A DNA stretch of 64,000 nucleotides, taken from positions 1 through 64,000 of the forward strand of contig NZ_NESK01000020.1 in the NCBI RefSeq assembly GCF_003063415.1, read 5' to 3'. Under the pieces are notes generated by a model, which was not told the DNA's origin, made no database searches, and was given only the letters and a program-made list of their open reading frames with translations. Made by a program: the position numbers and the translations under genes. The DNA is from Limnohabitans sp. 2KL-17 (GTDB lineage Bacteria; Pseudomonadota; Gammaproteobacteria; Burkholderiales; Burkholderiaceae_C). Positions 16,862-20,820 of this stretch are shown in pieces; the first letter of the stretch is position 1, and every line of letters starts with the position of its first letter.

Positions 16862-17947
16862 ATGAAAATAGCAGTCCTCCCCGGTGATGGCATCGGCACC
16901 GAAATCGTTGCCGAAGCCGTCAAAGTCCTGAACGTTCTCGACCTCAAGTTCGAGATGGAAACCGCGCTGGTCGGTGGTGCCGCCTTTGATGCGTTTGGGC
17001 ACCCCCTGCCCGAAGCGACCCTCAAGCTGGCAATGGCATCAGACGCGGTGCTGTTTGGCGCCGTGGGTGACTGGAAATACGACACCCTTGACCGGCCCCT
17101 TCGACCCGAGCAAGCCATTTTGGGATTGCGTAAGCACATGGGCCTGTTCGCCAACTTCCGCCCGGCCATCTGCTACGAGCAGCTGGTCGGCGCGTCCAGC
17201 CTCAAGCCTGAATTGATCTCGGGTCTGGACATCCTGATCATCCGCGAGCTGACGGGCGATATCTATTTCGGCCAGCCACGCGGGCGACGCACCGCCACCG
17301 ATGGCCACTTCCCCGGTGCCGAAGAAGCCTTTGACACCATGCGCTACAGCAAGCCCGAGATCGAGCGCATTGCCCATGTGGCTTTTCAGGCTGCCCGCAA
17401 ACGCAAAGCCGCAGACAAAGAAGGTCGCGTGACCAGCGTGGACAAGGCCAACGTGCTCGAGACTTTCCAGTTCTGGAAAGACGTGGTCACAGAAGTCGGC
17501 AAAGAGTACCCCGACATTGCCCTGGACCACATGTATGTGGACAACGCCGCTATGCAGTTGGTCAAGGAACCCAAACGCTTTGACGTGGTGGTCACCGGCA
17601 ACATGTTCGGCGACATCCTTTCCGACGAAGCCTCCATGCTGACAGGCTCCATCGGCATGCTGCCTTCGGCCAGCCTGAACACGAAAAACCAGGGTTTGTA
17701 TGAGCCCAGCCACGGCAGTGCCCCCGACATCGCTGGCAAAGGCGTGGCCAACCCTCTGGCCACCATCCTGAGCGCTGCCATGATGCTGCGTTTCAGCCTG
17801 AACCAACCCGAAGCGGCCCAGCGCATTGAAGCGGCTGTGCAAAAAGTACTGGCACAGGGTTTGCGCACTGGCGACATCTGGAGCGAAGGCACCACCAAGG
17901 TGGGCACCGCGCAGATGGGTGAAGCGGTGGTGAAAGCGCTCGGCTGA
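16862..17947 (+). CDS. leuB: 3-isopropylmalate dehydrogenase
   Basis: 361 residues from the ATG at 16862. Motifs: [12 protein letters not shown] at the N-terminus, substrate-binding arginines in [14 protein letters not shown] and [10 protein letters not shown], the Mg-binding aspartates in the DNAAMQL and [12 protein letters not shown] segments, and [14 protein letters not shown] for NAD. It oxidatively decarboxylates 3-isopropylmalate to the leucine precursor. The three leu genes are contiguous, but leuA is not in the window. Confidence 0.97.
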
Positions 17948-17989
17948 CCCCTCTCTCATGCTGTCAGGCTGGGCTCAGCTTGCATCCAT

Positions 17990-17995
17990 TACAAT
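17990..17995 (+). promoter_or_regulatory. Probable -10 box in front of the 33-codon upstream ORF
   Basis: TACAAT ends 7 bases before the ATG at 18003, so a transcript starting the usual distance away would be leaderless or nearly so. The -35 region (about 17966-17972) is weak. Confidence 0.4.
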
Positions 17996-18002
17996 TTCGT
18001 TC

Positions 18003-18104
18003 ATGTTTCACGCCCGCCTGTTCTCCCTGAACTTTGCTGTTGCCGCCAAGGCAGTTGCTGGCGCGCGTGCAACTTCCACAAAAACCACGACCATTAAGGG
18101 CTAA
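18003..18104 (+). CDS. 33-codon upstream ORF with a Thr-rich run, candidate leader peptide of asd
   Basis: The ATG at 18003 opens 33 codons ending in TAA at 18102-18104. Residues 24-31 read TSTKTTTI: five Thr and one Ile within eight codons, near the end of the peptide. The first part (LFSLNFAVAAKAVAGARA) is Ala-rich and unremarkable. The composition resembles thr-operon leader peptides, and asd (92 bp downstream) supplies threonine, isoleucine, methionine and lysine precursors. No ribosome-binding site is visible, but a -10 box 7 bases upstream could give a leaderless message. Expression is not proven. Confidence 0.5.
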   Translation: MFHARLFSLNFAVAAKAVAGARATSTKTTTIKG

Positions 18105-18109
18105 TCAGC

Positions 18110-18174
18110 CTGGTTCGTCGTGCGCCCCCCCCCGGCCAGACGAGCCGGGCAAACAGTCAGGTCGAACACTGTTT
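18110..18174 (+). promoter_or_regulatory. Competing hairpins in the asd leader
   Basis: CTGGTTCGTC (18110-18119) can pair with GACGAGCCGG (18139-18148), including two G-U pairs. The right arm can instead join a tight hairpin CCCGGC (18131-18136)/GCCGGG (18144-18149), so the two folds exclude each other. A third, weaker stem AAACAGT (18151-18157)/ACTGTTT (18168-18174) ends in four T. This is attenuator-like, but a canonical long T-run is absent, and a C-rich stretch (18124-18133) could instead favour Rho. Confidence 0.4.
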
Positions 18175-18196
18175 TAAAAATTGAAAGGGCGTTGAA

Positions 18197-19354
18197 ATGA
18201 GCAAGTTAGTAGGTTTGGTCGGCTGGCGCGGCATGGTCGGCTCAGTGTTGATGGACCGCATGACTCAGGAAAAAGACTTTGACCTGATCGAGCCATTGTT
18301 CTTTTCCACATCGAATGCGGGCGGCAAAGCCCCGGCAATGGCCAAGAACGAAACCACGTTGCAGGACGCATTCAACATCGAGCAGCTCATGCGCTGCGAC
18401 ATCATCATCACTGCCCAGGGCGGCGACTACACATCGGACGTCTTCCCCAAACTGCGCGCTGCAGGATGGCATGGCCACTGGATCGATGCGGCCTCGACCC
18501 TGCGCATGGAAAAAGACGCAGTCATTATTCTCGATCCGGTCAACATGCCCGTGATCAAGAACGCCCTAGCCCACGGTGGCAACAACTGGGTGGGCGGCAA
18601 TTGCACCGTCTCGTGCATGCTGATGGGCGTGGGCGCTTTGTACAAAGCCGGCCTGGTCGAGTGGATGAGTACCCAGACTTACCAAGCGGCTTCGGGTGGT
18701 GGCGCGCAACACATGCGCGAACTGCTGACCCAATACGGCACACTGCACGCCGAAGTCAAAGCCCTGCTGGACGACCCCAAAAGTGCCATTCTGGAAATCG
18801 ACCGCATGGTGGTCGCCAAACAGCGCGCCCTCACTGCGGCTGAGACTGCCAACTTTGGCGCGCCATTGGGTGGCTCGCTGATCCCATGGATCGACAAAGA
18901 CCTGGGTATCGGCAAAAACCGGGACGAGCCCGGATGGGGCACATCCAAGGAAGAGTGGAAGGGCATGGCCGAAACCAACAAGATTCTGGGTTTAGGCGAA
19001 GGCTTCAACCTTGCGTCCATTCCCGTTGACGGTTTTTGCGTACGTATTGGCGCGATGCGCTGCCACAGCCAGGCCCTGACCTTCAAGCTGAAAAAAGACG
19101 TGCCCGTGGCCGACATCGAAGCCATGATCGCCGCAGACAACGGGTGGGTCAAAGTGGTGCCCAACACCCGTGAAGCCACCGTCAAGGATTTGACCCCTGT
19201 GGCCGTGACTGGCACCATGACCATTCCGGTGGGCCGAGTGCGCAAGCTGGCCATGGGCCCTGAATACGTGGGCGCATTCACCGTGGGTGACCAGCTTTTG
19301 TGGGGCGCAGCCGAGCCGCTGCGCCGCATGTTGCGCATTTTGCTGGACGCCTGA
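18197..19354 (+). CDS. asd: Aspartate-semialdehyde dehydrogenase
   Basis: 385 residues with a GAAAGGG site 8 bases upstream. The NADP motif [15 protein letters not shown], the nucleophile C136 in GGNCTVSC and the acid/base His in RCHSQAL place it in the Gram-negative Asd class. It reduces aspartyl phosphate to the semialdehyde feeding lysine, diaminopimelate, methionine and threonine synthesis. It follows the leu genes but is separated from them by a leader with its own probable promoter, the Thr-rich ORF and hairpins. Confidence 0.97.
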
Positions 19355-19398
19355 TGCCCCTGCGGCAACAGAACCCAACGGTCACACCCTGAAAAGAA

Positions 19399-20820
19399 AT
19401 GCAGCTCATGCCCGTGCCCAACCGCAGCCATCAGCTCGCTAAGAACTGGACCGTGGCTGCGGTGTGGGCCTGCGCCAGCATGTCCGCAAAGGCTCTGACC
19501 CTGGGCCAATTTTCGGTGGAATCGGGCTTGGGCCAGCCACTTCGGGCGGCCATCGAGATCACGAACTACAAGGTCGAAGACCTTCGCAAACTCAAGGTTC
19601 AATTGGCCGAACCCGCCAGCTTTGAACAAGCCGGCATAGCATTTCCTCAGGCCCTGAATGGCTTGCAGGCACGTCTGGAGTTTCGTGGAGATGGCAAGCC
19701 CTATGTAGCGCTGATCGGGCAAACGCCCGTGAACGACAATTTTCTGGATGTGATCGTGGAGGCGCAATGGCCTGCTGGCCGCTTGGCCATGAATTACACA
19801 CTGCTGGTCTCGCCTTTGCGGCCTACCAAAGCCTCTGCTGAGAAAGTAAAGGGTGATGAAACGCTTATTGCGCCCGTGGTGTCACCCAAAGCCTTGGCTT
19901 CGGTCGCGTTGGCTGAGACCGACACCAAAGGCAAAAACGTTGAAGAAGCCATCACCGTCCGGCCCGGCGACACCGCATCCCGACTGGTTTTGCGCAAAAT
20001 GCCAGCAGGTGTCTCCCTGGACCAAATGCTGCTGGCCATGGTCCGTGCCAACCCGGAAGCCTTCATTGAAGGCAATGTGAATCTCTTGCGCGAGGGCGTG
20101 CAAGTGCAACTGCCGAACGCGCAAGAAGCGGCACAAGTGCCGGCCGAAGAAGCCCGTCAAACCGTGATCGCGCAAACCATCGACTTTGCGGCCTACGCCA
20201 GGCGCTTGGCCCAGACTCCGATGAAGGCTTCTGCCACTGCAACCCGCGAAATGACTGGAAAGGTCGGCGAACTGCAGGCCCCTAAACAGCCACAAAACGC
20301 ACAAGACAAATTGACCCTGAGCAAACGCGAAGTCACAGTCGACAGCGCCGAAGCGCGACTGGCAGTGGAGCGCGAGATCCAGGACAAGACAGAACAACTG
20401 ACCGCACTGAAAAAGAACCTGGAAGCATTGAAGTCTTTGGCGGCCGCAAGCGGTTTGTCAACAACAAGTTCCTCCGATCCATCGGCCCTGACACCGAGCC
20501 TGCCCAAGGCCGTCGCAGAATCGGCACCCAGGTCCTTGCTGGATCAGTTCACCAGCAACCCATCCATCTGGGCGTGGGTGATGGCCCTTTTGGCAGGCAT
20601 GGCCGCTTGGGTCTGGGTGGTCAGGCGCCGCCCTGATCCCCATGAAAGTTTGTTTGGACCGACCAGCAGCCAGGCCAAAGCCCCCACCTTAACCCCTTTA
20701 CCCTCAGGCCTGCCGCCTCAGTTTGCAAACCTCGACCTGAATCTGACACCCGCACCTACACCTGAATCCGAGTCCAAGGAAGCCCCTCAGGCCTCCAACC
20801 CAAGGGGTCCGAACTCGTGA
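19399..20820 (+). CDS. fimV: FimV-like inner-membrane LysM protein
   Basis: 473 residues, shorter than the roughly 900 of Pseudomonas FimV. A signal sequence (to about residue 32, cleavage near SAKA) precedes the FimV N-terminal domain (LTLGQFSVESGLGQPLRAAIEI, 33-138). Then come a LysM-like segment (ITVRPGDTASRLVLRK...NLLREGVQVQLPN, 185-240), a Gln/Lys-rich coiled-coil stretch (about 310-355) and one membrane helix (389-410). The tail is short and Pro/Ser-rich and lacks the TPR-like cytoplasmic domain that FimV uses to organise polar type IV pili. The stop overlaps the GTG of truA by 4 bp. Confidence 0.85.
   Translation: MQLMPVPNRSHQLAKNWTVAAVWACASMSAKALTLGQFSVESGLGQPLRAAIEITNYKVEDLRKLKVQLAEPASFEQAGIAFPQALNGLQARLEFRGDGKPYVALIGQTPVNDNFLDVIVEAQWPAGRLAMNYTLLVSPLRPTKASAEKVKGDETLIAPVVSPKALASVALAETDTKGKNVEEAITVRPGDTASRLVLRKMPAGVSLDQMLLAMVRANPEAFIEGNVNLLREGVQVQLPNAQEAAQVPAEEARQTVIAQTIDFAAYARRLAQTPMKASATATREMTGKVGELQAPKQPQNAQDKLTLSKREVTVDSAEARLAVEREIQDKTEQLTALKKNLEALKSLAAASGLSTTSSSDPSALTPSLPKAVAESAPRSLLDQFTSNPSIWAWVMALLAGMAAWVWVVRRRPDPHESLFGPTSSQAKAPTLTPLPSGLPPQFANLDLNLTPAPTPESESKEAPQASNPRGPNS

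Follow-up and report, generated by a model that had tools for sequence, protein, structure and literature searches.

A putative Thr/Lys/Ile-sensing attenuator upstream of asd, carried on a probably leaderless ORF or on the LeuB tail, in Comamonadaceae-like bacteria

The gap between leuB and asd in the window (the whole 64,000-nucleotide stretch of Limnohabitans sp. 2KL-17 DNA analysed here) carries a putative ribosome-sensing attenuator for asd, the output of which would be translational and act through a switch at the asd ribosome-binding site (RBS); we assign this reading a probability of roughly 0.6. In the proposed mechanism, transcription would start at or beside the AUG of a leaderless leader ORF. 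When tRNA charged with Thr, Lys or Ile runs short, the ribosome would stall on the codon run, segment 2 would stay free and pair with segment 4, and the resulting hairpin 2:4 would hold a C-rich box inside, so that the asd RBS stays open. When the ribosome reads the leader through to the stop codon, or when no ribosome translates it, segment 2 would be covered or paired with segment 1 and 3:4 would pair, upon which the C-rich box, now free, would pair with the asd RBS and close it. In relatives with a fused leader, the sensor codons would be the last codons of leuB, with the remainder of the mechanism identical. The stalling, the direction of the response, and translation instead of transcription as the output are what we infer. 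Such an element would probably raise Thr, Lys and Ile synthesis when these amino acids run short.

The features of the locus are collected in Table 1. A preliminary description, made from the letters of the window, had reported a 33-codon ORF with TSTKTTTI at residues 24-31 and three stems downstream of it, and all four were confirmed at the base level: the ORF itself, the stem CTGGTTCGTC (18110-18119) with GACGAGCCGG (18139-18148), the stem CCCGGC (18131-18136) with GCCGGG (18144-18149), and the third stem AAACAGT/ACTGTTT inside 18151-18174. The second stem shares 18144-18148 with the first, and the two are therefore mutually exclusive. The predicted fold of 18003-18210 had a z of -2.1, with 7 of 200 shuffles equally good. 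A longer in-frame version of the ORF, starting from an ATG at 17958 (48 aa), is open in the window, and an ATG at the equivalent distance was limited to 26 of the 159 free-form loci, of which 21 are Limnohabitans-type close relatives. A run of nine C residues at 18125-18133, between segments 2 and 3, is variable in length among close relatives.

Table 1. Features of the leuB-asd region, in window coordinates.
Feature	Position	Strand	Basis or remark
leuB, 3-isopropylmalate dehydrogenase	16862..17947	+	NCBIfam TIGR00169 leuB, 494 bits, cut-off 353
-10 box TACAAT, probable leaderless promoter	17990..17995	+	read in sequence; conserved box
Leader peptide ORF, 33 codons, MFHARLFSLNFAVAAKAVAGARATSTKTTTIKG then stop	18003..18104	+	read in sequence; conserved in relatives
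Putative regulatory codons ACT TCC ACA AAA ACC ACG ACC ATT AAG GGC (Thr/Lys/Ile)	18072..18101	+	
Segment 1 CACGAC	18086..18091	+	partner GTCGTG 18117-18122
Inner helix of 1:2, GGGCT / AGCCT	18098-18102 / 18107-18111	+	surrounds stop codon
Segment 2 CTGGTTCGTC	18110..18119	+	helix 2:4
C-rich box GCGCCC	18122..18127	+	complementary to asd RBS 18187-18192
Segment 3 CCCGGC	18131..18136	+	partner 18144-18149
Alternative partner of C-rich box, GGCCA	18134-18138	+	present in predicted window fold
Segment 4 GACGAGCCGGG	18139..18149	+	common to helices 2:4 and 3:4
Third hairpin AAACAGT...ACTGTTT	18151..18174	+	lineage-limited; not conserved terminator
GGGCGT in asd RBS	18187..18192	+	partner of C-rich box
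asd, aspartate-semialdehyde dehydrogenase, putatively regulated gene	18197..19354	+	NCBIfam TIGR01745 asd_gamma, 578 bits, cut-off 403

The ORF, its codon make-up, the -10 box, the helices and the complementarity to the RBS are each apparent from comparison with relatives. Of 60 genomes of the genus, 58 yielded asd, and DNA was taken for 30; further relatives came from at least 80 records (Limnohabitans, Acidovorax, Hydrogenophaga, Rhodoferax, Simplicispira and others) among the matches listed, and the upstream DNA of the family and the order represents part of all matches. The window's family is coded f1 and probably belongs with the Comamonadaceae, while f31 appears to be the Burkholderiaceae in the narrow sense. 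Among 138 f1 loci, 136 were readable (all except L173 and L178), and L185 is incomplete upstream. A loose classifier assigned 60 of them to a free form, in which the leader is an ORF of its own, and 50 to a fused form, in which it is the end of leuB. With six weak fused tails added by hand (L135, L138, L175, L196, L283, L331), leaders were present at 116 of 136 loci, and these together with the window make up the 117 leaders analysed below. The classifier erred in calling L248 of another family free (1 of 60) and in missing L212 of f31. No leader was found in L091, L128, L134, L169, L275, L288 and L297, which are of the same family or group and have a normal LeuB end.

A strict rule based on Thr codons alone asked for four or more Thr among the last 15 codons ahead of a stop located 70-125 nt upstream of asd. 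It picked out 74 of 136 f1 loci, 11 of 29 f31 loci and 3 of 3 f13 loci, and none of the 60 loci from 35 other families; with the threshold lowered to three Thr, the counts were 103/136, 12/29, 3/3 and 2/60, respectively. A covariance model built from 101 leaders, applied at E <= 0.01, had matches in 251 of the 300 f1 genomes scanned (106 of 115 genera), many of these genomes having also supplied the model, and 49 of the 300 had no match to it. As eight of the best E values lay above 1e-4, the level of chance second hits, 243 genomes (101 genera by reading of the list) may be counted instead, all with E below 1e-4. Most genomes, the window's own included, gave one match, and two were also obtained in other f1 genomes, e.g. 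G182; in ten genomes compared with asd positions, the best match was just upstream of asd. A scan of the order matched 18 of 250 genomes, namely eight f1 members at 66-88 bits and ten others at 27 bits or less. Further copies of the element were considered and rejected, as second matches reached at most 28 bits in 15 genomes rechecked and matches outside the family at most 27 bits, both being taken as chance.

The comparison that the preliminary description had called for thus found both the Thr codons and the stems conserved across the family. Its observation is confirmed, with conservation as the decisive evidence, and its interpretation as an attenuator is supported by the sequences compared. 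A chance short ORF followed by chance hairpins is refuted by the same conservation, as seen in the 251 matched genomes and in the strict four-Thr rule (74 of 136 family loci versus none of 60 elsewhere), and retains a negligible probability.

The codon run stands out both within the window and among relatives. In the window, 2124 stop codons are preceded by ten open codons; the leader stop is alone among them in having at least eight Thr, Lys, Ile or Met residues in the last ten codons, and is one of four with at least five Thr. In the last nine codons of the 117 leaders, Thr accounts for 41.8%, Lys for 20.3% and Ile for 16.7%, together 79%, and the corresponding figure for Asd and LeuB from 218 loci of all families is 16%. 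The Thr/Ile run proposed earlier as the sensor therefore stood as far as Thr and Ile are concerned, and its restriction to these two did not, since Lys codons belong to the run in the 117 leaders. Thr, Lys and Ile are all made from aspartate semialdehyde, i.e. through Asd, so that the sensor would be wider than threonine and a shortage of any of the three could act. A run of pathway-product codons in a short ORF before a biosynthetic gene, as attenuators have, is thus present. Differences in codons 21-33 of related 33-codon leaders fall mostly on codon position 2 (1794 of 3290), by which Thr, Ile and Lys are exchanged for one another. Synonymous differences were in excess only in codons 10-20 (0.55 versus 0.29 expected, the leader pairs not being independent), which fits translation of the ORF; codons 2-9 (0.26 versus 0.26 expected) and codons 21-33 (0.21 versus 0.28 expected) showed no such excess among the same non-independent pairs.

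If the RNA were structured for some other purpose, such as processing or the binding of a protein or metabolite, the peptide would be incidental, and the strongly conserved sequences of segments 2 and 4 as well as the missing synonymous excess in codons 21-33 are in line with this. Such a reading is at odds, however, with a tail that is 79% Thr, Lys and Ile, with position-2 differences that swap these residues, with the recurrence of the codon run as a LeuB tail (see below), and with f31 and f13, in which leaders rich in Thr, Ile and Lys precede asd on largely different downstream RNA; we consider it very improbable.

The set of 159 free ORFs was reduced to 157 by removal of L120 and L318, which have no ATG 20-60 codons before the stop, and to 137 by removal of repeats. 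A length of 33 codons was found in 94 of the 137. A match of at least 5/6 to TATAAT, ending 6-9 nt before the ATG, was present in 125 of these 137 unique ORFs versus 1.5 in shuffles, and the same box was found in 0-5 of the 137 when other windows were inspected. The earlier suggestion of a -10 box seven bases 5′ of the ATG and a leaderless message is strongly supported by this conserved box, and the free leader ORF looks leaderless, with a transcript that would start at or beside the AUG. Sinorhizobium trpL is leaderless and starts at the 5′ end of its transcript, as the asd leader appears to. A promoter scan of the window returned no -35/-10 pair by its rules; the -10 box alone is conserved.

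Helix conservation was measured in alignment A1, which contains 101 of the 117 leaders after removal of near-identical ones and of eight atypical ones (L135, L168, L170, L175, L309, L318, L320, L331), a removal that raises the paired percentages. Helix 2:4 was paired in 93.3% of 1009 cells, with 16 two-sided changes; none of 500 shuffles was as high, and slid controls gave 24-49%. Helix 3:4 was paired in 85.9% of cells, a level reached by 5 of 500 shuffles; slid controls gave 22-62%. Helix 1:2 was weaker, with 76.1% of cells paired (68.6% in its outer and 85.0% in its inner part; slid controls 26-60%). Because segment 4 is common to 2:4 and 3:4, the codon run is followed by mutually exclusive conserved helices. 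At columns 52-83, within hairpin 2:4, both sides were changed in 30 sequences. The RNAalifold consensus fold was weak (-1.6 kcal/mol), perhaps because alternative helices compete. The CAG..CTGTT of the third hairpin was present in 30 of 61 free leaders.

Two kinds of additional stem around hairpin 3:4 were also seen. One, e.g. CACAAACCC with GGGUUUGUG, occurs in L131, L278, L294, L304, L306, L315, L325 and L334; by eye, its sequence changes on both sides, and it is followed by a U run in L304, L306 and L315. The other, of GGACCC/GGGUCC type, was seen by eye in the fused loci L263, L274, L290, L302, L312, L313 and L314.

No part of the leader is more complementary to the asd RBS than the C-rich box that immediately follows segment 2 (mean -10.7 kcal/mol); an overlapping window 3 nt earlier gave -10.2 kcal/mol and the remaining windows -3.8 to -8.4 kcal/mol. 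When partners were exchanged among loci, 0 of 5000 exchanges were as good as the box with its own RBS, and 15 of 5000 when exchanged within the free and fused groups, where the gain was modest (-9.20 own versus -8.97 kcal/mol exchanged); in these exchange tests, kinship is handled only by the free/fused grouping, not by a tree. Against the inner stretch of hairpin 2:4, too, the box did better with the partner from its own locus: within groups, 0 of 5000 exchanges were as good (116 of the 117 loci, L320 excluded). These two exclusive partners of the box suggest a switch at the RBS. Matched changes in box and RBS were found as UGCGCC/GGCGCA (L136), ACGCCC/GGGCGU (L097), UCGCCC/GGGCGA (L130) and UGCCCC/GGGGCA (L284). 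An RBS-complementary segment exclusive with another pairing, as in translational attenuators, is therefore present, and is absent in some fused lineages; inspection by eye gave no clear box:RBS match in, e.g., the fused L263, L274, L283 and L290, nor any in L128 and L134, which, like L091, have lost the run. The output is thus more likely to be asd translation, through the box matching its RBS.

Predicted exposure of the Shine-Dalgarno (SD) sequence was also compared between ribosome states. Exposure with a stalled ribosome minus that with a terminating ribosome had a mean of +0.07 (38 up and 11 down of 117), and shuffled middles gave -0.008; the effect was small, and between a stalled and a ribosome-free leader it was not significant (p = 0.15). 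For the window's own sequence, the prediction was opposite to the proposal, with 0.17 when stalled and 0.40 with the ribosome at the stop. Translational attenuation is favoured, the folding model supporting it weakly among relatives and not in this window.

In classical transcription attenuation, 3:4 or the third hairpin would stop transcription before asd unless 2:4 forms. The order of segments is that of the trp and thr attenuators, some lineages (L304, L306, L315) have a stem and then a U run, and the third hairpin AAACAGT/ACTGTTTT is present in the window. However, no intrinsic terminator was found in the window by the scan rules, terminator-like sites were not enriched (7 of 116 loci versus 0-5 in five shuffles), and the third hairpin lies clear of segment 4 and hence is not exclusive with 2:4, so that we regard this reading as unlikely. 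The third hairpin was rejected as a terminator, as no terminator is conserved across loci; the preliminary description had itself conceded the lack of a textbook T-run terminator, which was borne out. The stem and U run in some lineages imply that the output step may vary. Alternatively, Rho might end transcription on the untranslated or freed leader before asd, with stalling preventing this. The U-tract terminator is not conserved and the element lies at the leuB end in fused loci, both of which suit Rho, but the complementarity of the box to the asd RBS would be left unexplained, and Rho-dependent attenuation is also a doubtful explanation.

The fused form occurs at 59 loci, of which 58 are distinct; 50 belong to the f1 set and 9 were among the matches listed in further records. 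There, the codon run forms the C-terminus of LeuB, and RNA of the same kind follows; one such tail reads MGDAVVAAITKTITKG and then stops. The window's own LeuB ends without the Thr/Lys/Ile tail seen in relatives, and the tail appears to be extra to the enzyme, as a solved relative (4iwh) ends at MGDAVVAAL. The share of Thr, Lys, Ile and Met is similar in fused (76%) and free (82%) tails. On a quick tree of 123 rows of Asd, joined by LeuB for 77, at least 8 changes between the free and fused states were counted among 112 rows versus 18-20 in five shuffles, a rough count, given the poor support of 50 of the 120 inner branches. We lean towards the view that, in many Comamonadaceae-like bacteria, the last codons of leuB serve as leader peptide for a translational attenuator that sets asd, and that the sensor has changed places repeatedly in evolution, from the LeuB tail to a separate leaderless ORF under a promoter of its own or the reverse. 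If this is true, reading of the last codons of one cistron would gate the next cistron, and short odd LeuB tails would be explained as regulation, not enzyme function. Fused tails ending 70-150 nt before asd, instead of a free ORF, were noted in L062, L069, L071, L082, L095, L097, L099, L105, L109, L113, L127, L130 and others.

A search of 17500-19500 against Rfam, Thr_leader included, at E <= 1 returned one chance match (E = 0.042), inside asd. Judged by its conservation, the element is real and probably an attenuator, and it has no Rfam match. The enterobacterial thr operon attenuator (thrL, Rfam Thr_leader) has a Thr/Ile codon run followed by exclusive hairpins. The asd element resembles it in that exclusive hairpins follow a leader peptide with a Thr/Ile run, and in that the gene downstream belongs to the aspartate family. 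Unlike it, the asd element includes Lys codons, appears leaderless, has no conserved terminator, would control asd rather than thrABC, can be a LeuB tail, and has no Thr_leader match. It would work like an amino-acid attenuator, without the intrinsic-terminator feature of classical transcription attenuators.

Among the literature searched, the nearest precedent for pairing with the SD is the actinobacterial LEU element before leuA (PMC1262725). Both have a leader ORF with product codons and a pairing that involves the SD box; in the LEU element it is the Leu codons that pair with the SD, and evidence cited there has regulation unchanged when they are mutated (PMC1262725), whereas the asd element would use a separate box for the RBS. 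The Corynebacterium ilvBNC uORF is similar as a short ORF with product codons before an amino-acid operon and differs in its terminator stem, amino acids and taxa (PMC10272879); Sinorhizobium peTrpL is a short product-codon ORF before an amino-acid operon, with other amino acids and taxa (PMC7298713); and the alphaproteobacterial cysS uORFC-8-2 motif shares a conserved product-codon uORF and a structured leader found by comparison, and differs as a proposed transcription attenuator with Cys codons, in another gene and class (PMC8632094). In the literature searched, which lay mostly outside subscription journals, both an asd leader of such a kind and an amino-acid sensor carried by the tail of the preceding enzyme were unreported. 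The element would place control where the pathways to Lys, Met, Thr and Ile diverge, and it appears to be shared by the majority of the members examined in a large betaproteobacterial family. It would join three unusual traits: a three-product sensor, a leaderless leader, and a sensor able to sit on an enzyme tail.

The leaders of other families before asd were seen in L141, L151, L198, L199, L202-L207, L210 and L212 (f31) and in L159, L234 and L235 (f13). By eye, several of those in f31 also seem leaderless, their ATG being preceded at 6-9 nt by a box resembling TAGACT or TATATT. A typical betaproteobacterial leader-asd locus was also present in L054 (CALQKH020000002.1), which is titled an Akkermansia muciniphila MAG and is probably a mislabelled bin.
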